Source: Devosia sp. YIM 151766 | Lineage (GTDB): Bacteria; Pseudomonadota; Alphaproteobacteria; Rhizobiales; Devosiaceae | Length of the DNA: 64,000 nucleotides | Assembly: GCF_030285925.1 (NCBI RefSeq) | Contig: NZ_CP127251.1 | Span: 1 to 64,000 of the forward strand | Reading direction: 5' to 3' | In this document: positions 4,095 through 19,531 of the stretch, one piece after another | How positions within the stretch are numbered: the stretch's first letter is position 1 | Layout: every line of letters starts with the position of its first letter | Position numbers and translations under genes: made by a program | The notes under the pieces: generated by a model | Databases searched by the model: none | What the model saw: the letters and a program-made list of their open reading frames with translations, nothing else | What the model was told of the DNA's origin: nothing

Positions 4095-6539
<2,445 letters not shown>

Positions 6540-6708: not shown

Positions 6709-7248
6709 TCAGACGATCGAGCGAAAAGCGCTGTCAAAGTAGAGCAATGGGCATTTTTCCTGCTCGGCGACGCTGGCATTGTCGACCGCAGCGAAGAATA
6801 CGGTGTGACTTCCCATCTCGATGGCATTGAAGATCGTGCAGTCGAGGGTCGCCAGCGCGCTGGCCAGCAGCGGATTGCCATTGGCGCTCTCCACCCATTG
6901 CCCGGCTTCGAACCGGCGCTCCCGGGCATGGGGATCGGCGAAGCGGTCGGCAATGGGACGGTCGGCATGGCCCAGAATGGAAACGCAGAAGCTGCCGCGG
7001 CGGCGGATCGGCGCGCAACTGGACGCGGTACGGTTGACGCAGACCAGCACGATTGGCGGCGCCAGCGAGACCGAGGTGAACGAACTCACCAGCAGGCCAT
7101 GGCGGACGCCGCCTTCATTCGCCGTCAGCAGGCAGACGCCGGCGGCCAGATTGCGCATGGCCAGGCGCAGATGGTCCGAGGTCGTGGGACTATCGGTGGA
7201 GATGGCGTTGGAAAGCATGCCGGCCTCGCTCAATCCGGGAATATCCAC
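6709..7248 (-). CDS. Flavin reductase domain protein
   Basis: This 179-residue protein matches the flavin reductase-like (HpaC/HsaB-type) fold. Such enzymes use NAD(P)H to reduce free FMN or FAD and supply it to a partner monooxygenase. Typical features are LRLAMRNLAAGVCLLTA near residue 27, LLVSSFTSVSLAPPIVLVCVNR near 52, SFCVSILG near 87, and a GSHTVFFAAVD segment near 145. GTG at 7248 overlaps the stop of the upstream HapK-like gene; ATG 7218, with GAGG five bases before it, is a credible alternative start. The likely partner is the flavin monooxygenase at 8602. Its presence in one operon with the HapK-like gene suggests a dedicated reductase. Confidence 0.88.
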   Translation of the reverse strand: MDIPGLSEAGMLSNAISTDSPTTSDHLRLAMRNLAAGVCLLTANEGGVRHGLLVSSFTSVSLAPPIVLVCVNRTASSCAPIRRRGSFCVSILGHADRPIADRFADPHARERRFEAGQWVESANGNPLLASALATLDCTIFNAIEMGSHTVFFAAVDNASVAEQEKCPLLYFDSAFRSIV

Positions 7249-7604
7249 TAGGCCTGCGCGGGCAGCGGCGGGCGCGCGCCATGCGGCAGGTCGGCGATGA
7301 AGCGGGTGCCGTAACAGGCATTGACGCTGGACGTATCGACGAACATGGGGAAGGTCTCCATGACATAGGCCATGCCTTCGCCGGCCAGCGCCTTCTGCCA
7401 GGCTTCGACGCTTTCCACCTCGATATCCTCCATGATCTGAAAGCGCTGCTCCCCGTCCAGGGCGCCCTCGATCACATAGACCTCGAAGCGGATGACGCCG
7501 GGCTGGCCGGGCGCGATGCGCTGATCGATCTCGCGCGACCAGGCCTTGTATTGCTCGAGGGACACGCCCGGCTTGAGGTTATAGGTGACGAAAATCTTCT
7601 GCAT
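7248..7604 (-). CDS. HapK/REDY-like dimeric alpha-beta barrel protein
   Basis: This is a small 118-residue protein beginning MQKIFVTYNLKPGVSLEQYK. The beta-alpha pattern, with the acidic segment FQIMEDIEVESVEAWQKAL and the C-terminal YGTRFIADL, fits the ferredoxin-like dimeric barrel group. It most resembles the REDY-like HapK family, members of which, as I recall, sit beside flavin monooxygenases in indole and indole-acetate pathways. No enzymatic role is certain. The frame extends upstream to 7670, but ATG 7604 gives the natural N-terminus. Its stop overlaps the flavin reductase GTG by one base, so the two are probably translationally coupled. Confidence 0.6.
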   Translation of the reverse strand: MQKIFVTYNLKPGVSLEQYKAWSREIDQRIAPGQPGVIRFEVYVIEGALDGEQRFQIMEDIEVESVEAWQKALAGEGMAYVMETFPMFVDTSSVNACYGTRFIADLPHGARPPLPAQA

Positions 7605-7693
7605 CGGGCAGTCCTGGCATGAATGTTGATCCTGGCCAGGATGATGGAAGGCGAAACCGCGCAGTGGCAATCAACCGTTAGGTGGAGGCGATG

Positions 7694-8392
7694 TCAGGGG
7701 CGAACGACGCGGGCGACCATGGCGGCGCGGTTCTCCACCCCCATCTTATTGAAGATATTGATCATATGGGTCTTGGCAGTGGCAAGGCCGATGCCGAGAA
7801 GCTGCGCCACATCGGCATTGGTGGCGCCATTGCTGACCAGCATGACCACGTCAATTTCACGCTGGGTCAGCCCATATTGATGTTGCAGGCGATTGACGGT
7901 CTGGCGCTCCGTGACGCTGGGATGGCTGTGCAGGGCCACTTCCACATAGCTTTGCATAGTCTGGGCAGTGGCGAGCGTCGTGGCCGAAAGCGGCGAATCC
8001 GAACGCAGCTTGAGCACGCCCAGGCCGGCAAAAGCGCGCCCGTCCTTCCAGAACAGCATGTCCATGCAATCCTCGATGTCATAGGCGCTGAGAAAGCCGC
8101 GATAGCGGTCGCGCGCATCGGCCGGCACCGCGGCGCTTTCCTCTTTGAGCAGGCCGATCCGCTTATTGCGGTCGACGAGACGGCGGGCCAATAGCGGGTC
8201 CGATTGCCAGATATCGCTGTCATAATCGGTGAGACAGGTCTGGCTGACGCCGAAAATCACCGGATCGCTGACGGTATTGCTGTCATCGAGCCAATAGAAA
8301 ACGGCGCCCGATGCATCGAGCATGGACGAGACGAAGCGCGCGGTTTCGCGCACCATGTCCATGCCGGAACTATCCACTCCACCCTGTCTCAT
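7694..8392 (-). CDS. LuxR-type transcriptional regulator
   Basis: The 232-residue protein has an N-terminal sensor-like region (about 1-150, resembling autoinducer-binding or GAF folds) and a C-terminal LuxR helix-turn-helix: YGLTQREIDVVMLVSNGATNADVAQLLGIGLATAKTHMINIFNKMGV. ATG 8392 is chosen because GGAG precedes it by seven bases; the frame also reaches 8452. Its ligand is unknown. It is divergent from the flavin monooxygenase and followed by the HapK-like and reductase genes on its own strand, so it probably controls this block. Without LuxI in the window, a catabolic inducer is more likely than a homoserine lactone; this is inference. Confidence 0.85.
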   Translation of the reverse strand: MRQGGVDSSGMDMVRETARFVSSMLDASGAVFYWLDDSNTVSDPVIFGVSQTCLTDYDSDIWQSDPLLARRLVDRNKRIGLLKEESAAVPADARDRYRGFLSAYDIEDCMDMLFWKDGRAFAGLGVLKLRSDSPLSATTLATAQTMQSYVEVALHSHPSVTERQTVNRLQHQYGLTQREIDVVMLVSNGATNADVAQLLGIGLATAKTHMINIFNKMGVENRAAMVARVVRP

Positions 8393-8497
8393 GCTCACTC
8401 CATGAGCAGATTTCTCCTCCGCCTGCTCAATGGGCGGGAATCTGACGGGCATCCGAAATCTTTGTCAATGGCTTTGTCGGCGCCGGTCGAAGGCCTC

Positions 8498-8513
8498 TCA
8501 ACCGAAAGGTTGA
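8498..8513. promoter_or_regulatory. Candidate operator in the divergent promoter region
   Basis: The inverted repeat TCAACCGAAAGGTTGA (six-base arms, four-base centre) lies in the 209-base gap between the LuxR-type regulator and the flavin monooxygenase. LuxR-type regulators commonly bind dyads of this size. No -10/-35 pair could be assigned with confidence. Confidence 0.35.
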
Positions 8514-8601
8514 TTGCTCCCCGGCTGGTCATCGGGTCGTCATGTTGGCAGCAAGCGGAGACCGGCCATGCTGGCGCCGCGCCCTTACAGCGAGATTGAC
8601 T

Positions 8602-9864
8602 ATGCCCGGCCTGACCGTTTCTTCCCGACCCGCCGCTCCGTTGAGCGAAACCAGCCCCAGCCCCGACGAGATGGTGGCGCGGGCTGCGTCCATGCGCGAG
8701 TTGCTGCGGGCCGAACAGCAGGCGACCGAGGAACGCAGCTTCTATTCGGAAGAAATCCACGACCGGTTCAAGCAGCTCGGCCTCTACCGCATCATGCAGC
8801 CCAAAATGTTCGGTGGCTATGAGATGAGCGTGGAGACCTTCTATCGCGTCGTCATGGAAATCGCGCGCGGATGCCCGTCCACCGGCTGGTGCTTCTGTCT
8901 GGGATCGGCGCATGTGTTGCAACTGGCCTCGCATTTCGGCGAGCAGGCGCAGCGTGAAGCCTTCGGGGATTCGGGCGAATTCATCGCCGCCGCCCGCGAC
9001 CTGCCGGCCGGCACGGTCCGTCCCGTTGCCGGCGGCTACGAGGTTTCCGGCACCTGGAACTATTGCTCCGGCGCGCCCTATTCGACCCATTTCATCGGTG
9101 TCGCCAAGCTGGTGGATGCACAGGGAAATCCCGATCCCGATGGCGAGCGCCGGCTGGTAATGATCCCGCGCGCCGACTGGACGCTCATGGACGATTGGCG
9201 CGGGCTTCTGGGCATGCGCGGCAGCGGCTCGCATTCGATCAAGGTCGACAAGGCCATCATTCCCGAACATTTCGTCGTTGCCGGCGACGTGCTGGAAACC
9301 GTCGATACCGAGGCTGGAACGCCCGGTTTCCACCTGCATGGCAATGCGCTTTACAATGGCCGCAATCTCGGTTTCTTCCACGGCGAGTTTGCCGCCATAT
9401 TGAGCGGCATCGCCCATGCCGCCATCGATGAATACGATACCATCATCCGCCTCACCCGCACCGTGCCGCCGCTATCGCCGGGCTTCAAGGCCGAAGCCGC
9501 CGATTATCAGCGACCCCTGGGCATCGCGCTGGGCCAGGCCGCCGCCGCCCGCGAAGCGGCCCTGGGCGGCAGCCGCTTGCTGGCGCAGGTCAGCGAACGC
9601 GGCTCGAATGGCGGGGAGCCATTCAGCCTGGAGGAGGATTTGCTGATCGAGGGCTTGCAGGCGCAGTCAGCGCGACTCTCCTATGAAGTGGTGGAGATGC
9701 TGGTGCGGATGAGCGGGTCGTCCAATGCGGTCCGCAATGGCCGGCGCATGGAGCGCTATCTGCGCGATGCCTCGGTCTATCGCAGCCACGCCCAGGGCTC
9801 ATTCGTCGAGATCATGGCCACCGAACTCGCCAAGGTGCACCTGGCTGGGCCGGGGCCGAACTAG
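8602..9864 (+). CDS. Group-D flavin-dependent monooxygenase (acyl-CoA dehydrogenase fold)
   Basis: The 420-residue protein has the acyl-CoA dehydrogenase fold used by oxygenase components such as HpaB, HsaA and IacA, which hydroxylate aromatic or indolic substrates with reduced flavin from a separate reductase. Visible landmarks are LGLYRIMQPKMFGGYEMS near residue 60, the MEIARGCPSTGWCFCLGSAH helix near 87, the beta-domain segment YEVSGTWNYCSGAPYSTHFIGVA near 137, and GMRGSGSHSIKVDKAIIPEHF near 205. True acyl-CoA dehydrogenases lack the CPSTGW-type segment. ATG 8602 is used; the frame reaches 8542 without a better start. The substrate is unknown. The flavin reductase at 6709 is the likely partner. 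Confidence 0.82.
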   Translation: MPGLTVSSRPAAPLSETSPSPDEMVARAASMRELLRAEQQATEERSFYSEEIHDRFKQLGLYRIMQPKMFGGYEMSVETFYRVVMEIARGCPSTGWCFCLGSAHVLQLASHFGEQAQREAFGDSGEFIAAARDLPAGTVRPVAGGYEVSGTWNYCSGAPYSTHFIGVAKLVDAQGNPDPDGERRLVMIPRADWTLMDDWRGLLGMRGSGSHSIKVDKAIIPEHFVVAGDVLETVDTEAGTPGFHLHGNALYNGRNLGFFHGEFAAILSGIAHAAIDEYDTIIRLTRTVPPLSPGFKAEAADYQRPLGIALGQAAAAREAALGGSRLLAQVSERGSNGGEPFSLEEDLLIEGLQAQSARLSYEVVEMLVRMSGSSNAVRNGRRMERYLRDASVYRSHAQGSFVEIMATELAKVHLAGPGPN

Positions 9865-9931
9865 CCGCTGTTTTCACACGCGCATCGCGGACCTGCGCCG
9901 TACTCGTTACATGTCCGCTCGGAGGGAAAGA

Positions 9932-10909
9932 ATGAAACGCAGAACTCTATTGAAAGGCCTGGCTGCCGGCGGTCTCGTCACCGCCCTGCCCATGCCCTAT
10001 ATCGGAGCCCAGCATAACGCGATCTCGCCGCGAACCGGCAAGCCATTCCAGATCGCGTTCAGCCATCCGGTTTCCGAAGCCCCCATCGTCTCCCGCATCC
10101 GCAATTTCGCCACCGAGCGCGGGGCCGAATTGGGGGTCGAGGTGCTGCACGATTCCACCACCAGCTCGCAGCTCGATCGCCAGGTGTCGACGCTCGAAAC
10201 CTGGATCGAGGCCAATGTGGACGCCATCTGCGTCTCGCCCATCTCGCCGTCTTCGATCGCCGGATTGCAAAAGGCCGCGCAGGAAAAGGGCATTATCTGG
10301 ACCACCTATGCCATGCCGATGGAGGGCTCGGACGGCACGCTGGGCTGGGACAATGACGAAAGCGGACGCCTGGTCGGCGAGCATTGCGCCAAATGGCTGA
10401 GCGAGCAGGATATCGACGGCGAAGTGCTGCTGCTGACGCTGAAGGCGATCCAGAGCGGCCAGGGCCGGACAGACGAACCGCAGCGCATCCTGTCGGCACT
10501 GGACGGCACACGCATCGTCTCGGCCCAAGACGCCTCGGACGCCGCCAAGGGCCTCCAGGTCACCGAAAACGTCTTGCAGGCCAATCCCGGCCTCAACGTG
10601 GTTATCGGCTTCAGCGACGATGGCGCCCTGGGCGCCTTGCGGGCCTTTACCGGCACCGACAAGGACCCGGCCCAGTGCTATATCGCCGGCCAGGACGGCT
10701 CGCTCGAAGCGCTGCAACGCATCCGCGAAGGCGGATTCTACAAGGCGTCCTCCGCCCTGCCGGTCAAGAGCATCGGCCACGGCGTCGTCGACCTCAATTA
10801 CGAGCTGTTGACCGGCACCGCCAAGTCCGATGTGTTCAATGTCGGCGTGGTTCTGGCCAGCATGGATGATCCGGCCCAATTGGACGACCTGATCTCGCAG
10901 TGGGACTGA
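9932..10909 (+). CDS. Sugar-type ABC transporter substrate-binding protein, Tat signal
   Basis: This 325-residue periplasmic binding protein belongs to the ribose/galactose (type I) family. The N-terminus MKRRTLLKGLAAGG carries a twin-arginine motif followed by a hydrophobic segment, suggesting Tat export. The mature part shows the expected pattern: QIAFSHPVSEAPIVSRI near 36, NVDAICVSPISPSSI near 93, and the hinge-proximal VVIGFSDDGALGALRAF near 225. ATG 9932 has GGAGG about eight bases upstream; an in-frame ATG at 9911 lacks one. Its stop overlaps the ATPase gene. The ligand is not deducible from sequence; the surrounding enzymes suggest a nitrogen-containing compound rather than a plain sugar. 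Confidence 0.85.
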   Translation: MKRRTLLKGLAAGGLVTALPMPYIGAQHNAISPRTGKPFQIAFSHPVSEAPIVSRIRNFATERGAELGVEVLHDSTTSSQLDRQVSTLETWIEANVDAICVSPISPSSIAGLQKAAQEKGIIWTTYAMPMEGSDGTLGWDNDESGRLVGEHCAKWLSEQDIDGEVLLLTLKAIQSGQGRTDEPQRILSALDGTRIVSAQDASDAAKGLQVTENVLQANPGLNVVIGFSDDGALGALRAFTGTDKDPAQCYIAGQDGSLEALQRIREGGFYKASSALPVKSIGHGVVDLNYELLTGTAKSDVFNVGVVLASMDDPAQLDDLISQWD

Positions 10910-12426
10910 TGATGGCCGAAGCGCAACCCGCCCTTGAAATTTCCGGTCTGCGCAAGAGCTTCGCCGGCATCGAGGTCGTCAAGGGCGTGGATCTGACGGT
11001 TCATCGGGGCGAGGTCGTCGCTCTTCTCGGCGCCAATGGCGCCGGGAAATCCACCGTGATCGGCTGTCTGGCCGGCAATCACCGGCACGATGGCGGCACG
11101 GTGGCCATCGATGGCCGGGTCTTCGACGATCTCGACCCGCTCAAGGCGGGCAAGGCCGGCATCGCCGTCATCCACCAGCATCCCAGCGTGGTCGAGAACC
11201 TCTCGGTGGTCGACAATATGTTCCTGGGCCGCGAGATCGGGCGCGGCGGTCTGATCGACCGCCGCGCCCAGCGCCGGCAGGCCCAGGCGGTGCTGGACGG
11301 ATTGGGCGGGCAATTGTCGCCCGACACGCTGGTGGCCGATCTTTCCCCGGGCGGCCGGCAATTGGTGGAGATCGCCCGGGCGCTGCTGCGCCGCCCCTCC
11401 ATTCTGATCCTCGACGAGCCGACGGCGGCTTTGGGCAAGGAGGATGTCGAGCGCCTGCTGGCGCAGGTGCGGCAGCTCGCCGCCTCGGGGCTGGCCATCC
11501 TCTATGTCACCCATCACCTGCAGGAATTGCCCAAAGTGGCCGATAGCGTCACGGTGATGCGCGACGGCCTCGTGAGTTTTTCCCGCGCCATGTCCGAGCT
11601 GACCCTGGCCAATATCGCCGAGGCGATCAGTCCGGGCTATCTCCGCGCCGAAAATCCGGCGGCACCGGTCGCCGCCGATGCGCCCGCCATCCTCGAACTC
11701 GACCAGGCCCGGATCGGCCGCGCGCCGCCGATATCCTTTTCGGTCCGCGCCGGCGAAATCGTCGGCGTCTTCGGCCTGTTGGGCAGCGGCCGCACCAATC
11801 TGCTTGAAGGCATTTTCGGATCGCGCGGCGCTATCGGCGGCATTATGCGTTTTCGCGGCGCCCCCTCGTCTTTCACCGATCCCGGCGCGGCGATCGCCGC
11901 GGGCATCGCGCTCGTCGCCTCCGACCGCGTCCGGCAAAGCGCCTTTATGGGCCTCAATGCGCTGGAAAACCTGCTGATGCCGCATCTGGGCGGCATGGCC
12001 CGCCATTTCCGCCGCAGCGGCAAGGCCGAAGCCGCCGAATTCACCCGCATCGCCCAAAGGCTCAAGATCAACCCGCCGCTGCCGGGCATCGCCATGGGGG
12101 CGCTTTCGGGAGGCAATGCGCAGAAGGTGGCGGTCGGACGCTGGCTCAGCCAATATGCCGATAGCGCCCTATTGATGCTGGACGAGCCGACACAGGGCAT
12201 CGATGTCGGTGCCCGCGCCGATCTTTACGACCTGGTCCGCGGCTTCGTCGCCGACGGCGAGCGCGCCGTGCTGTTCACCTCGTCCGATGCCGATGAAATC
12301 CTGCTGCTGGCCAGCCGCTACATCGTGCTGGGCCGCGACGGTATCGTCGCCGCCGGCAATATAGCCGAGATCGACGCCGATGGGCTGGTCGCCCTCGTGC
12401 ATGAAATCGAAAGACAAGCCTCATGA
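10909..12426 (+). CDS. Sugar-type ABC transporter, double ATPase subunit (RbsA-like)
   Basis: This is the two-domain ATPase of a ribose-family importer, about 505 residues long. Domain 1 has Walker A GANGAGKST, signature LSPGGRQLVEIARALL and Walker B ILILDEPTAALG. Domain 2 has a degenerate P-loop (GLLGSGRTN), as usual in RbsA/MglA, but a good signature LSGGNAQKVAVGRWL and Walker B LMLDEPTQGIDVGAR. ATG 10909 overlaps the stop of the binding-protein gene (ATGA-type junction), and ATG 10912 is also possible. The permease gene overlaps its end by four bases, so the three genes form one operon. Confidence 0.92.
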   Translation: MMAEAQPALEISGLRKSFAGIEVVKGVDLTVHRGEVVALLGANGAGKSTVIGCLAGNHRHDGGTVAIDGRVFDDLDPLKAGKAGIAVIHQHPSVVENLSVVDNMFLGREIGRGGLIDRRAQRRQAQAVLDGLGGQLSPDTLVADLSPGGRQLVEIARALLRRPSILILDEPTAALGKEDVERLLAQVRQLAASGLAILYVTHHLQELPKVADSVTVMRDGLVSFSRAMSELTLANIAEAISPGYLRAENPAAPVAADAPAILELDQARIGRAPPISFSVRAGEIVGVFGLLGSGRTNLLEGIFGSRGAIGGIMRFRGAPSSFTDPGAAIAAGIALVASDRVRQSAFMGLNALENLLMPHLGGMARHFRRSGKAEAAEFTRIAQRLKINPPLPGIAMGALSGGNAQKVAVGRWLSQYADSALLMLDEPTQGIDVGARADLYDLVRGFVADGERAVLFTSSDADEILLLASRYIVLGRDGIVAAGNIAEIDADGLVALVHEIERQAS

Positions 12427-13415
12427 CGCAAACCTCCGGCACGATATCGGCCTTGCCAGCCAAGACCAATATCTTTGCGCTGCTGCGCTCGCCCGTCTTC
12501 ACGCAGAACATGCTGCTCATCGCCATCGTTCTGGTCATGCTCGGCTTTTCCCTGGCCAGCGGCGCGTTCCTGACCGGTGGCAATATCCGCAATATCGCGC
12601 TGCAATCCTCGATCATCATGATCGTCGCCATTCCCAGCGCCCTGCTGATCATCTCGGGCTATGTCGATCTCTCGGTCGGCTCCATCCTGGCGGTATCCGG
12701 TGTTTGCGCGGGGCTGGCCTCGATGAGTTTTGGCATGCCTGTGGGGGTGCTTTGCGGCATCGCCGCGGGCGCGGCCGCCGGGGCGGTCAATGGCTATGTC
12801 ATCGCCATTCGCGGTTTCTCGCCGGTCATCGTCACCCTCGGCATGTTGACCCTGTTGCGCGGTCTCGCCATGGTCATCGCCGCCTCGCCGATCTACGGCT
12901 TTCCCGAAGCCATGTCGCAATTGGGACGCGGCACGTTGTTCGGCGTGCCCTATCTGGTGCTCATCGCCCTTGCCGTCGCCCTGGCCGGCGGTTTCGTCAC
13001 GGCGTTCTCGCCGCTGGGCCGGCATATCTTCGCCATCGGCGTCAATGCGCGCGCTGCCTTCCTATTGGGCATCCGCGTCCGCTCGACCGTGTTCCTGCTC
13101 TATGTGCTGACCGGGGCCGCCGCCGGCCTGGGGGGCGCCTTGCAGGCCGCCCGGCTCGACAGCGCTCCGGCCGAAAGCCTGGGCAGCGGGTTCGAATTGA
13201 CGGTGCTGACGGCGATCCTGCTCGGGGGCGTCTCCTTTTCCGGCGGGCGCGGCCGCATTTTCGGCGTGGTGCTGGGAATCTGGTTCCTGGGCGTGCTGCA
13301 AAACGGCCTGACCCTGCTCAATGTGCCGATTTCCTGGACCTCGGTGGTCACCGGCGTGGCCCTGGTCACGGCGGCGGGGCTCGATCACCTGAGCCAGCGT
13401 GGCGCCCGGCGCTAA
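12423..13415 (+). CDS. Sugar-type ABC transporter permease (RbsC-like)
   Basis: The 330-residue inner-membrane protein has about eight to ten hydrophobic helices and the BPD_transp_2 family landmarks: GGNIRNIALQSSIIMIVAIPSALLIISG, followed by YVDLSVGSILAVSG, and later GRHIFAIGVNARAA and AILLGGVSFSGGRG. It forms the translocation pore, probably as a dimer, for the importer encoded just upstream. Its ATG overlaps the ATPase stop (ATGA). The dimethylformamidase-like gene begins 13 bases after its stop, which puts uptake and catabolism in one transcript. Confidence 0.92.
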   Translation: MTQTSGTISALPAKTNIFALLRSPVFTQNMLLIAIVLVMLGFSLASGAFLTGGNIRNIALQSSIIMIVAIPSALLIISGYVDLSVGSILAVSGVCAGLASMSFGMPVGVLCGIAAGAAAGAVNGYVIAIRGFSPVIVTLGMLTLLRGLAMVIAASPIYGFPEAMSQLGRGTLFGVPYLVLIALAVALAGGFVTAFSPLGRHIFAIGVNARAAFLLGIRVRSTVFLLYVLTGAAAGLGGALQAARLDSAPAESLGSGFELTVLTAILLGGVSFSGGRGRIFGVVLGIWFLGVLQNGLTLLNVPISWTSVVTGVALVTAAGLDHLSQRGARR

Positions 13416-13428
13416 AGGATACGCAAGA

Positions 13429-15570
13429 ATGAACATCATCGGATATGCCGACCGGATGACGGTCGCGCCGGGTGAAACCATCACCTTTCATGTCAGCAGC
13501 GACAAAGCCGATTGCCGGGCCGGCCTGGTCCGCTATGTCGGAGCGGCCCATGGCCAGCGCTCCGCCCAGCGCGAGCCCATCGCCATTGACGGGCTCGGCG
13601 CCTTCACCGCGCAGCGGCAGCAGACCATATTGGGGTCATACGGCATCCTGCCAATGCCGCAGCGCCCCGTTCGCGCCTTCCAGCTCTGGATCTGGCCGAC
13701 GCGCAGCGCGCTAAAAAGCCGCCAAACCATCGTTCATACCGATGCCTGGTCGCTGTTCATCGAGGGTGGCCGAATCGGCCTTGAGGCCGGCGATGTGCGG
13801 GCCGATGGCGGCGCGGTCGAGGATCGCGCCTGGTATCTGGTAGCCGGCAATATCGGGCCGGATGGTCTGGATATCCATGTCGAACGCGTCGGCCCTGGCC
13901 GGCCGCCCGACAGCGTGGTCCGCGCGGCCCAGCGGGGCCAGATCGCGTTCGGCGCCGAGAACACGCTGATCCTGGCGGCTTCCGGGCCGGGACAGGCCCA
14001 TTACAACGGCAAGATCGAGCGTCTGCGCCTCTTTGCGGAGGCCTTGGATAAAGCTGATATCACAGCGCTGCGCGATGACGGCAAGGCGCCCCGCCCGGTC
14101 GCCGATTGGCGGTTCGAAGACCGGATGAGCGGCGATGTGCTGGTCGACCACGGCCCGCAGGCCCTCGAAGGAAAGCTCCATCACCGGCCGGCGCGGGCCA
14201 TGACCGGGCATGGCTGGGATGGCACCACTCAGATTGCGGCGCATAAACCCGAGCAATATGGTGCCATTCACTTTCACGACGACGATCTCGCCGATGCCGG
14301 ATGGACCCCCGATATCGCGCTGGCCATCCCCCACGATCTGCGCAGCGGCGCCTATGGCCTGCGCGTCGACAATGGCGAGGAGGCCGATGAAATCCCGTTC
14401 TTCGTGACGGCCGGCACGGCGTCGCACGATGTGCTTTTCCTCGCGCCTACCAATACCTATCTCGCCTATGCCAACGAGCATATGGCCGAGTCGGAGACCA
14501 TCGACTGGTCCGAAGTGCGGGTCGGTTCGCCCGTGCTCAATGCCTATGATCGCGCCATTTTTGCCGATCCGACGCTGGGCCTTTCAAGTTACGACATGCA
14601 TAGCGATGGCTCGGGCGTGTTCTATTCGGCCCGCCGGCGGCCCATCCTCAATTTCCGTGCCGATTACCTGAGTTGGGTCGTGGGCGGTCCGCGCCATTTC
14701 GCGGCCGACCTGCAGACCATCGGCTATCTGGAGCAGCGTGGTTTCGACTATGCCTTGGCCACCGACGAGGATCTCGACCGCGAGGGCGCGGCGCTGCTGT
14801 CGCGCTACAAGGTGGTGCTGACCGGAACGCATCCCGAATATTGGACGCGGCCGATGATGGACGGTCTCAGCGGCTATCTCCAAAGCGGCGGGCGCTTGCT
14901 CTATCTTGGCGGCAATGGTTTTTATTGGGTCACCGCTTGCACCGGACCGGACCGCGACGGCATCGAGGTGCGGCGGGGCATGGTGGGCACGCGGGTCGCC
15001 AATTCGGGTCCCGGCGAGGCCGGTTTGTCGTCGACGCTGCAATCCGGCGGTCTCTGGCGCCATTGTGGCTACGTGCCCCAGGCGCTGGTGGGCGTCGGCA
15101 TGGCCGGGCAGGGCTGGGGGAGCGGCGCCGGCTATCGCCGTCTGCCCGCGAGCTATGACGGCGAGGGCGCCCGATATTTCCGCAATATCGATGCCGAGGA
15201 ATTGGGGCATTTCGGCCATGTGATGGGCGCCGTCGTGGGCGACGAGATCGACCGGCTCGACTTCGCCCTGGGCACGCCCAGCCATGCGCTGCATCTGGCC
15301 ACCTCGACGCCCTTGAGCAGCAAATACATGCTGACGCATGAGGATTTGCTGGCCACGACCCGCGCCGTTGCCGCACCGGACAATGACCTGGTCCGTTCCG
15401 ACATCGTCGCCTTCGATCTCGATGGCGGCGGCAAGGTGTTTTCAGCCGGTTCGATCAGCTTTGCCGGCGCACTGGCCTGGGACGATTATGACAATCCTAT
15501 CGCTACCATGATCGACAATGTCATGAGCGTTTTTCTCGACCGCGACCGGGCGGCCAATGGTGAGCAATGA
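13429..15570 (+). CDS. N,N-dimethylformamidase large-subunit-like protein
   Basis: This 713-residue protein aligns by eye over its full length with the dimethylformamidase large subunit, an iron-dependent amidohydrolase. The N-terminal part (about 1-230) is a LamG-like beta region (LFIEGGRIGLEAG). The C-terminal part holds conserved blocks: LAPTNTYLAYANE (340-350), LSSYDMHSDGSGVFYSARRRP (385-405), VVLTGTHPEYW (462-472) and LGTPSHALHLATST. Tyr347, Tyr388 and Glu470 have the spacing of the Tyr/Tyr/Glu iron ligands I recall for the characterised enzyme. No signal peptide is seen, so it is probably cytoplasmic. The small alpha subunit of that enzyme has no counterpart here. ATG 13429 fits the MNIIGYADRMTVAPGE start. 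The amide substrate is unknown. Confidence 0.8.
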   Translation: MNIIGYADRMTVAPGETITFHVSSDKADCRAGLVRYVGAAHGQRSAQREPIAIDGLGAFTAQRQQTILGSYGILPMPQRPVRAFQLWIWPTRSALKSRQTIVHTDAWSLFIEGGRIGLEAGDVRADGGAVEDRAWYLVAGNIGPDGLDIHVERVGPGRPPDSVVRAAQRGQIAFGAENTLILAASGPGQAHYNGKIERLRLFAEALDKADITALRDDGKAPRPVADWRFEDRMSGDVLVDHGPQALEGKLHHRPARAMTGHGWDGTTQIAAHKPEQYGAIHFHDDDLADAGWTPDIALAIPHDLRSGAYGLRVDNGEEADEIPFFVTAGTASHDVLFLAPTNTYLAYANEHMAESETIDWSEVRVGSPVLNAYDRAIFADPTLGLSSYDMHSDGSGVFYSARRRPILNFRADYLSWVVGGPRHFAADLQTIGYLEQRGFDYALATDEDLDREGAALLSRYKVVLTGTHPEYWTRPMMDGLSGYLQSGGRLLYLGGNGFYWVTACTGPDRDGIEVRRGMVGTRVANSGPGEAGLSSTLQSGGLWRHCGYVPQALVGVGMAGQGWGSGAGYRRLPASYDGEGARYFRNIDAEELGHFGHVMGAVVGDEIDRLDFALGTPSHALHLATSTPLSSKYMLTHEDLLATTRAVAAPDNDLVRSDIVAFDLDGGGKVFSAGSISFAGALAWDDYDNPIATMIDNVMSVFLDRDRAANGEQ

Positions 15571-16724
15571 TGATGGATTTCGATCTCAGCAATCCCACGC
15601 GCATCGTCTTCGGCCAGGGCAGGATTGACGATCTTGGCAAACTCGTGCCGCGCTCGGCACGTGTCCTGCTGCTGTTCGGCGGCGGCAGCATCAAGCACAA
15701 CGGCGTCTATGACCGGGTCATGACGGGGCTCGGTGACCGCTTCGTATTGCCCTTTGGCGGCGTCGAGGCCAATCCGCAATATGACACCGTCATGGCGGCG
15801 CGGGCGGCGCTGATCGAGGCCGATTGCACCTTCGTGCTCGGCGTAGGCGGCGGCTCGGTGATCGACGCGTCCAAATTCCTGGCGCGGATCGCCACGATGG
15901 CGGCAATGGATCCCTGGGACGCGCTGGTGGCCGGTGACCACCCGCCGGCGCCCTTGCCCAATGGCGCGGTGCTGACCCTGCCGGCCACCGGTTCGGAGAG
16001 TAATGCCGTATCGGTGATTTCGCGGGCCGATTATGGCCTCAAGCTGCCCTTCGCCTCCGACGGCGCCCGCCCCGCCTTCGCCGTGCTGGACCCCGATACG
16101 ATGAAATCGCTCTCCCGCCGGCAGCTTGAAAATGGCGTCGTCGATGCCTTCACCCATGTGATCGAGCAATATCTGACCCTGCCGGTCGATGCGCCGGTGC
16201 AGCATGGCTATAGCGAGACGCTGCTCCGGACCTTGATCGACTGGGGGCCGGTGCTGATCGAGACGTCTTCGGACGAGAGCCGGGCGGCGATCATGTGGGC
16301 TGCCAACCAGGCGCTCAACGGTCTCATCGGCAGCGGCGTGCCGCAGGACTGGTCGACCCACATGATCGGCCACGCCCTGACGGCCCTCTATGGCATCGAC
16401 CACGCGCGCACGCTTTCGGCGGTCATGCCGTCGCTGCTGCGTTTCAAGTCCGCCGGCAAACTGGCCATGCTGGTCCGCTATGGCCGGAAGGTGTGGCAGC
16501 TTGACCATGCCGACGACCAGGTCGTCGCCGCCCAGGCCATCGACCGCACCGCCGCCTTCTTCAAACAGATGAATTGCCCGACGAAACTGTCCGATTTCAC
16601 CGATATCGCCGTCGAGCCCGAAGCGGTGGTGAGCCTCATCGCCAGGGCCGGCCAGTTTCCGCTGGGAGAAAGCCGGGATATCGGCGCCCGGGAAGTCCGC
16701 GCCATATTGGAGATGGCGCGATAG
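15567..16724 (+). CDS. Iron-containing alcohol dehydrogenase (YqhD/BDH-like)
   Basis: The 385-residue protein belongs to the type III, NAD(P)-dependent iron alcohol dehydrogenases, closest in pattern to YqhD and butanol dehydrogenases. The cofactor motif GVGGGSVIDASKF lies near residue 93. Probable metal ligands are Asp193, His197, His265 and His279, in the blocks VVDAFTHVIEQY and HMIGHALTALYGIDH, with the same spacing as in YqhD. Its start overlaps the stop of the dimethylformamidase-like gene; ATG 15567, 15570 and 15573 are all possible. It probably interconverts an aldehyde and alcohol in the pathway encoded by this block and is its last plus-strand gene. Confidence 0.88.
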   Translation: MMMDFDLSNPTRIVFGQGRIDDLGKLVPRSARVLLLFGGGSIKHNGVYDRVMTGLGDRFVLPFGGVEANPQYDTVMAARAALIEADCTFVLGVGGGSVIDASKFLARIATMAAMDPWDALVAGDHPPAPLPNGAVLTLPATGSESNAVSVISRADYGLKLPFASDGARPAFAVLDPDTMKSLSRRQLENGVVDAFTHVIEQYLTLPVDAPVQHGYSETLLRTLIDWGPVLIETSSDESRAAIMWAANQALNGLIGSGVPQDWSTHMIGHALTALYGIDHARTLSAVMPSLLRFKSAGKLAMLVRYGRKVWQLDHADDQVVAAQAIDRTAAFFKQMNCPTKLSDFTDIAVEPEAVVSLIARAGQFPLGESRDIGAREVRAILEMAR

Positions 16725-18493: not shown

Positions 18494-19531
18494 ATGACCG
18501 CGCACAGCTCTTATTCCATGCCCAGTCTGCCCCAGGAAAATCATCCATACAAGGTGATGGCGCTCTATAAATTCGCCGCGCTGCCCGACGCCGAACGCCT
18601 CAAGGCGCCGCTGGCGGCGTTCTGCTGCGCGCGCGGCATCAAGGGCACGCTGATCCTGGCGCCCGAGGGCATTAATGGCACATTGGCCGGGACGCCGGAG
18701 GCCATCGGCCAATTGGCGGATTACCTGTTCGCTTCCGGCCCGTTCGGCACCCGGCTGACCGGCGCCGAGGTGAAATATTCCTCTGCCGAAACCGCCCCCT
18801 TCCTGCGCATGAAAGTGCGTCTCAAGCCGGAAATCGTCACCCTGCGGGCGCCGGAAGCCGATCCGAACCGGCAGGTCGGCACCTATGTCGAGCCGGAGGA
18901 CTGGAACGCGCTGATCGCGCGCAATGACGTGGTGCTGGTCGATACCCGCAACGATTACGAAGTGGGCCTAGGCACGTTTCAGCGGGCGCTCGACCCCCAA
19001 ACGCAGAGCTTTGTCGAGTTCAAGGATTATGTGGCGCAGAACCTCGATCCGCAGCGCGACCGCAAGGTCGCCATGTTCTGCACCGGTGGCATTCGCTGCG
19101 AGAAAGCGTCGAGCTATCTGCTGAGCCAGGGTTTCGAGGAAGTCTTTCACCTGAAAGGCGGCATTCTCAAATATCTCGAAACCGTCCCGCCCGAGGACAG
19201 CCGCTTTGCCGGCGAATGTTTCGTCTTCGACGAGCGCGTTTCGGTCGGCCATGGGCTGGAGCCGGGCAAGGCCAGCCTGTGCCGCGCCTGCCGCCATCCG
19301 CTGACCGAAGCCGAGCGGCGGCATCCCGATTTTCACGAGGGCGTTTCCTGCCCCCATTGCATCGGCGACAAGGCCAAGCACCAGGCCGCCGCCGAGCGCC
19401 AGCGCCAGATGGACCTGGCCGGCCAGCGCGGCGGCGCGCATCTGGGCGACGCGGCGGCCGAGGACGCCGCCCGGCGCCGGGCGCTCAAAAAGGCCCGTGC
19501 GGAGCAATCGCGCCTGGCCAACAAGAACTAG
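18494..19531 (+). CDS. trhO: tRNA uridine(34) hydroxylase TrhO (rhodanese domain)
   Basis: TrhO (YceA) carries out oxygen-dependent hydroxylation of U34 in tRNAs, a step towards 5-methoxy or 5-oxyacetyl uridine. The 345-residue protein has the N-terminal domain (YKFAALPDAERLKAPLAAFC; GTLILAPEGINGTLAG) and then a rhodanese domain with the active cysteine in MFCTGGIRCEKASSYL near residue 195. A C-terminal Cys-rich segment (CRACRHPLTEAE ... CPHCIGDK) and a charged tail follow. ATG 18518 is a possible alternative start. It diverges from the aldo/keto reductase and converges with mbfA, with two bases between. Confidence 0.93.
   Translation: MTAHSSYSMPSLPQENHPYKVMALYKFAALPDAERLKAPLAAFCCARGIKGTLILAPEGINGTLAGTPEAIGQLADYLFASGPFGTRLTGAEVKYSSAETAPFLRMKVRLKPEIVTLRAPEADPNRQVGTYVEPEDWNALIARNDVVLVDTRNDYEVGLGTFQRALDPQTQSFVEFKDYVAQNLDPQRDRKVAMFCTGGIRCEKASSYLLSQGFEEVFHLKGGILKYLETVPPEDSRFAGECFVFDERVSVGHGLEPGKASLCRACRHPLTEAERRHPDFHEGVSCPHCIGDKAKHQAAAERQRQMDLAGQRGGAHLGDAAAEDAARRRALKKARAEQSRLANKN

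Follow-up and report, generated by a model that had tools for sequence, protein, structure and literature searches.

A candidate catabolic regulon joining a flavin monooxygenase, a ribose-family importer and a dimethylformamidase-like hydrolase in Devosia sp. YIM 151766

Do nine neighbouring genes of Devosia sp. YIM 151766, encoding a two-component flavin monooxygenase, a HapK-like protein, a LuxR-type regulator, a ribose-family ATP-binding cassette (ABC) importer, a hydrolase resembling the large subunit of dimethylformamidase (DMFase) and an alcohol dehydrogenase, serve a single pathway, or do they belong to unrelated functions that happen to abut? The genes occupy positions 6709-16724 of the 64,000-nucleotide stretch of contig NZ_CP127251.1 analysed here (the window). 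On balance we favour, with modest confidence, one inducible catabolic regulon for uptake, oxygenation and amide hydrolysis, and the cluster probably encodes a pathway, not described until now, by which a nitrogen-containing compound is used. No description of the same gene set was found in PMC full-text searches on HapK, dimethylformamidase, iac/iif and group D monooxygenases, among the matches listed and as judged by title and beginning of the abstract. All nine reading frames are present where a preliminary description of the sequence had placed them, and Pfam and NCBIfam comparisons bore out the assigned families in outline (Table 1).

The packing of the genes is operon-like. On the plus strand the monooxygenase gene is followed by those for the binding protein, ATPase, permease, hydrolase and dehydrogenase, and frames overlap at the binding protein/ATPase (10900-10909), ATPase/permease (12423-12426) and hydrolase/dehydrogenase (15567-15570) junctions, in agreement with the earlier claim that overlapping stop and start codons bind the importer to the catabolic genes. 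On the minus strand, the reductase and HapK frames meet at 7248, the LuxR gene is flanked by two gaps, and the HapK-reductase pair has its own 89-base upstream gap. Judged by this spacing, three transcription units are likely, HapK-reductase being the third, rather than the two arms on one 209-base divergent promoter that had been proposed; the length of 209 bases itself holds only if the LuxR gene starts at 8392, since a start at 8452 leaves 149 bases to the monooxygenase ATG at 8602. The start of the HapK-like gene, previously put at 7670, is corrected to the ATG at 7604, which is also the start of the database copy and of most homologues.

The two arms share an operator-like motif. Within the genome of 3.29 Mb, TCAACC-N4-GGTTGA is matched perfectly only by the palindrome TCAACC-GAAA-GGTTGA at 8498-8513, and a place with one mismatch (7671-7686) falls between the LuxR and HapK genes, within the 89-base gap. 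Matches with at most one mismatch number 13 in the genome, two of them in the cluster, against 2 for a reversed control pattern; given the first site, a single-base model predicts ~0.0004 such matches across the cluster's 260 intergenic positions. Both copies extend, with orientation alike, as GGTTGATTGC, a sequence of which the window has two copies where 0.15 would be expected (a count of 2 is reached by 1 of 100 shuffles), and the composite TCMACC-N4-GGTTGATTGC occurs at exactly two places in this genome and in none of 100 others. Because the motif is unique to the two promoters, it strengthens the case for a co-regulated set. The LuxR-type protein is likely the regulator of the cluster and may bind the putative operator; a relationship to DmfR was considered and rejected (26.6 bits, 20% identity). 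Terminator-like sites number 13 against 6.5 expected (standard deviation 2.8) and lie mostly inside genes, and long repeats in the divergent region amount to weak pairs only.

Table 1. Genes and putative operator copies of the cluster, in window coordinates
Feature	Position	Strand	Evidence or remark
Flavin reductase (PF01613)	6709..7248	-	Pfam Flavin_Reduct 8.1e-40
HapK-like dimeric alpha+beta-barrel protein, 118 aa	7248..7604	-	Pfam HapK 5.9e-5, 24.0 bits
Putative operator copy 2, TCCACC-TAAC-GGTTGATTGC	7667..7686	-	62 bases before HapK ATG
LuxR-type regulator	7694..8452 (start 8452 or 8392)	-	GerE HTH PF00196 7.3e-12
Putative operator copy 1, TCAACC-GAAA-GGTTGATTGC	8498..8517	+	84 bases before monooxygenase start
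Group D (acyl-CoA-dehydrogenase fold) two-component flavin monooxygenase, 420 aa	8602..9864	+	Acyl-CoA_dh_2 + Acyl-CoA_dh_N
Periplasmic binding protein, twin-arginine (Tat)-like signal	9932..10909	+	Peripla_BP_4 Pfam 8.8e-33
Two-domain ABC ATPase, ribose-family importer	10900..12426	+	PF00005 (ABC_tran), 2 stretches
Permease	12423..13415	+	BPD_transp_2 Pfam 7.4e-34
DMFase-large-subunit-like Fe hydrolase without small subunit	13429..15570	+	PF20254 (DMFA2_C) 6.7e-83
YqhD-like metal-dependent alcohol dehydrogenase, probable aldehyde reductase	15567..16724	+	Fe-ADH + ADH_Fe_C; 4qgs/1oj7

From these elements we infer the following course. The LuxR-type regulator would bind the composite motif before both the monooxygenase-importer-hydrolase-dehydrogenase operon and the HapK-reductase pair; the importer would take up a nitrogen-containing, probably aromatic or cyclic compound, into which the reductase-fed group D monooxygenase would insert one oxygen atom. 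The HapK-like barrel protein could then tautomerise, isomerise or further oxidise an unstable product, the Fe(III)-tyrosinate hydrolase, acting without a small subunit, would cut an amide bond, and the YqhD-like enzyme would reduce the aldehyde formed. The chemistry put forward in the preliminary description, that is, ring or side-chain oxygenation, amide hydrolysis and aldehyde or alcohol handling, is plausible, but like the order of steps and the class of substrate it is a proposal.

The hydrolase has many homologues (5109 among 7996 scored candidates at E<=0.001), and at the same threshold only two kinds of solved structure with a named activity match it in the Protein Data Bank, namely the DMFase large subunit (6lvb, 2.6e-103) and N-acetyl-(R)-beta-phenylalanine acylase (8huy, 2.4e-99), together with mutants or variants. 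The likeness to the large subunit of Paracoccus DmfA1A2 (6lvb) runs across residues 3-706 and includes the complete iron site of two tyrosines and one glutamate: counted by hand on the printed alignment, Y347, Y388 and E470 align with Y399, Y440 and E521, the iron ligands of the Paracoccus enzyme, and H468 aligns with H519, the roles of all four being those given in passages of PMC7686228. All 25 aligned members share the four residues without exception. The Paracoccus enzyme differs in having a small subunit, and in its gene neighbours; a profile search of the window for the DmfA1 small-subunit gene found none (best score 2.0 bits), and the DMFase large subunit alone is inactive, according to passages of PMC7686228. 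In a quick tree of 50 rows, a 98% branch separates 16 rows including true DMFase from 34 including the window protein. All ten places with a small-subunit gene are among the 16, of which six show none, and a small subunit was found for none of the 34. The 8huy acylase, a member of the same family, groups with DMFase in the other main clade but is listed with only one kind of chain, so that a separate small subunit may not be needed throughout the family. Given the lack of a DmfA1 match in the window, the separate clade and the single-chain acylase, we expect an amide hydrolase working without a small subunit and not a dimethylformamidase. The cluster ties this hydrolase to an importer, an oxygenase and an operator, and thereby offers a testable way to its substrate.

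Importer and hydrolase genes also lie close together in several unrelated loci. Among 80 loci of hydrolase relatives examined for neighbours, five have a ribose-family ATPase (>250 bits) within 7 kb: Pararhodobacter (L063; 1.2 kb, with a glutamine synthetase gene), Phyllobacteriaceae (L066; 4.3 kb, with an amidase, a member of the Asp/Glu/hydantoin racemase family and an M20 peptidase), Solirubrobacterales (L083; 1.0 kb, with part of a hydantoinase B match and a thiamine pyrophosphate enzyme), Acidimicrobiia (L079; 1.7 kb) and Chloroflexi (L032; 6.5 kb, opposite strand). The first three also hold the closest relatives of the binding protein seen (230, 227 and 165 bits, respectively); the best match in 296 other genomes of the order, with at most 7 candidates scored per genome, reached 157 bits and had no hydrolase nearby. 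Plasmid-borne hydrolase relatives adjoin importers of other families (branched-chain, polar amino-acid and TRAP), and the plasmid stretch with true DMFase has no importer. Within the genus, a hydrolase homologue above 160 bits was found in 3 of 60 genomes, at 36-37% identity, so the cluster looks lineage-specific and rare among related bacteria, and the complete nine-gene set was not found elsewhere.

Several results weigh against a single regulon. No monooxygenase relative was found near the 80 hydrolase loci, and none of 15 genomes with hydrolase or HapK relatives held one at E<=1e-30 in a search that lacked a positive control; the lone exception, L130, is faint (HapK 32 bits and monooxygenase 23 bits, <5 kb apart). 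Across 98 loci, ABC ATPases per 10 kb amount to 0.29 within 4 kb of the hydrolase, 0.40 at 4-6 kb and 0.37-0.42 at 6-10 kb, a density not higher close to the gene, and a generic enrichment was rejected. As to the promoters, 6-base palindrome arms are common in the region (202 of 500 shuffles), sigma-70-like sites are not above chance (2 versus 2.5 expected), and the palindrome was picked after being seen and its extended form written from both sites; the test lies in the second site and the shared extension.

The main rival divides the cluster into two unrelated modules with different substrates, importer-hydrolase-dehydrogenase and monooxygenase-HapK-reductase, lying side by side. This division, which we hold to be rather unlikely, agrees with the occurrence elsewhere of importer plus hydrolase, and of HapK, without the monooxygenase, and with the 67-base gap after the monooxygenase gene, but the monooxygenase gene stands at the head of the importer operon, apart from the gene of its likely reductase partner on the opposite arm, and a motif unique in the genome is common to the two arms. 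In three of the 80 loci (L101, L104 and L111), moreover, a HapK relative is found at ~5 kb from the hydrolase gene, amid amidohydrolases, though without the monooxygenase. The refuting condition set earlier, that importer, monooxygenase and hydrolase genes lie apart in homologous genomes, is escaped by half: importer and hydrolase are adjacent in some unrelated bacteria, but no monooxygenase relative was found near the hydrolase loci or in the 15 genomes, and ABC ATPases as a whole are not concentrated around the hydrolase. The single-pathway claim is supported in part, by the shared motif, by the importer-hydrolase adjacency and by HapK relatives that elsewhere adjoin C-N hydrolases and importers.

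In the regulon that we favour, the monooxygenase would be the oxidative component. An oxygenase of acyl-CoA-dehydrogenase fold and a separate flavin reductase occur in one locus, as is characteristic of group D, and confirm the two-component pair split across the divide that had been described; the reductase, for which none of 8 listed NCBIfam models reaches its cut-off, likely supplies reduced flavin to the monooxygenase. HsaA, the closest, C2 p-hydroxyphenylacetate (HPA) hydroxylase and XiaF are its nearest neighbours among solved structures whose substrate or pathway is named; they share with the window protein the fold family, a flavin reductase in the locus, and S156 and H396. These align with S171 and H396 of C2 HPA hydroxylase, which we take to be important residues. 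The protein nevertheless misses the NCBIfam cut-offs of HsaA (156.1 versus 450 bits) and HPA hydroxylase (123 versus 650 bits) and reaches no listed equivalog cut-off. Its nearest relatives (52-60% identity) come mostly from jgi, lgn and ena sources, taken here as metagenomes. The best match in 384 other genomes of the class scored 153 bits, with identities of 27-36%, and a search of 198 genomes from the family of G829 at E<=1e-60, made without a positive control, found none. Nine plasmid monooxygenase loci (of 87 records), from Allorhizobium/Agrobacterium vitis, Streptomyces, Sagittula and Caballeronia (the last record unannotated), contain no HapK, hydrolase, importer or dehydrogenase match; a flavin reductase lies near the plasmid relatives in three kinds. 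Contigs of equal length turn up among both the HapK and the monooxygenase relatives (3835 in both), a coincidence that by eye stays within chance.

The HapK-like protein scores just below the gathering cut-off of Pfam PF11639 (24.0 versus 25 bits), many of its relatives carry the domain, and its predicted model (predicted local distance difference test score 95.2) has the dimeric alpha+beta-barrel fold of HapK, EthD, methylmuconolactone isomerase, LsrG and cofactor-free oxygenases, which upholds the original identification; the modelled fold does not choose among the reactions of these relatives. Hahella HapK (2jdj), whose home is a prodigiosin cluster, has the same fold but only 18% sequence identity (E 0.25). 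Of 396 further genomes belonging to the order, three have a HapK match at E<=1e-5, two at 57-59% and one at 28% identity; the 20-kb surroundings of the two strong cases gave no monooxygenase match, and those of the third (L130) only one of 23 bits. Among 366 other genomes of the class, five weak matches were obtained. In G387 and G389, HapK relatives are accompanied by genes for a PF07090 'putative glutamine amidotransferase', a LacI regulator, an importer and a cyclase, an amidase or an M20 protein (stretches L116:3111-11404 and L117:3081-12608). The hydrolase has no significant similarity to the PF07090 protein adjoining other HapK genes.

An indole or indole-acetate-type pathway, in which an IacA-like monooxygenase would act with HapK as an accessory and the hydrolase would open an isatin- or formyl-type product, appears improbable. 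XiaF, which we take to be an indole-oxidising enzyme, is among the monooxygenase matches, but HsaA is the nearest structure. A HapK relative adjoins two cyclase genes of PF04199, a family that presumably includes isatin hydrolase and kynurenine formamidase. According to passages of PMC7225977, IacA shares the fold of the window protein and has a flavin reductase as its partner, so that the iac indole-acetate cluster likewise combines a group D monooxygenase with a reductase, whereas the indole oxygenase IifC belongs to group E. The nine genes of the window include neither an IacE/IifB short-chain dehydrogenase nor ring-cleavage genes.

The importer combines a Peripla_BP_4 binding protein, a two-domain ATPase and a BPD_transp_2 permease, as is typical of the CUT2 ribose family, and its earlier assignment holds for the transporter family and not for ribose as ligand. 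The signal of the binding protein is twin-arginine-like (19.7 bits, below the cut-off of 22.7). Among the listed models (for the ATPase, the best 25 of 191), no NCBIfam equivalog cut-off for a named sugar or autoinducer-2 (AI-2) is reached, and in the alignment Ala-Met and Ile-Val take the place of the Asp-Arg and Phe-Phe pairs through which 2ioy, a ribose-type protein, presumably contacts its ligand. A simple sugar importer, accompanied by an aldehyde reductase and lying beside unrelated genes, as the transporter family might suggest, is for these reasons very unlikely, the more so as the hydrolase frame overlaps that of the dehydrogenase. Least probable of all is Lsr-like uptake and processing of AI-2, which a ribose-family importer next to an LsrG-fold protein might call to mind: scores for LsrB (41 of 384 bits) and LsrA (338 of 586) fall short, there is one permease and not two, and no kinase or aldolase is present among the nine genes. 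The dehydrogenase, described before as an Fe alcohol dehydrogenase, can be refined to the YqhD type by its match to 4qgs/1oj7 (E 4e-105), although it misses the cut-off of the YqhD model PRK15138 (397.8 versus 645). Its D193, H197, H265 and H279 match YqhD residues that are presumably metal ligands.

Elsewhere, LivM-type ABC permeases carry a C-terminal DmfA1 domain (L166:6137-7792, L192:3717-5372 and L123:9267-10808), with DMFase-large-like genes directly downstream; on an Aminobacter plasmid (L192:5446-10189) two such genes stand in tandem behind one fusion. Of the 32 plasmid records holding the DmfA1 domain, mostly from Agrobacterium, 24 label the matching protein a permease, and genome G097 also has an open frame with the fusion; an 'inner-membrane translocator' of Halalkalicoccus was rejected as a fusion, being only 181 aa long. 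Such fusions point to the possibility of a physical link between uptake and amide cleavage. It is conceivable, if still doubtful, that the Devosia cluster encodes a new oxidative amide or N-heterocycle pathway, with import, flavin oxygenation and a small-subunit-less Fe(III)-tyrosinate amidohydrolase in series under one operator, and belongs to a wider and unrecognised group in which DMFase-like hydrolases are coupled to import, with the permease-DmfA1 fusions on Agrobacterium, Rhizobium and Aminobacter plasmids as its physically coupled extreme.

Two minor observations concern the hydrolase tree and the genomic setting. L101, a metagenome-assembled genome that bears the title Bifidobacterium breve, falls in a tight group with rows of Solirubrobacterales type, and its label is therefore probably wrong. 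The interval from gyrB (4113-6539) to a rhodanese-like gene (18494-19531) spans 12 kb here, compared with ~36 to 245 kb, read by eye, in relatives that have both genes on one contig, and seems to have been remodelled in this small genome.
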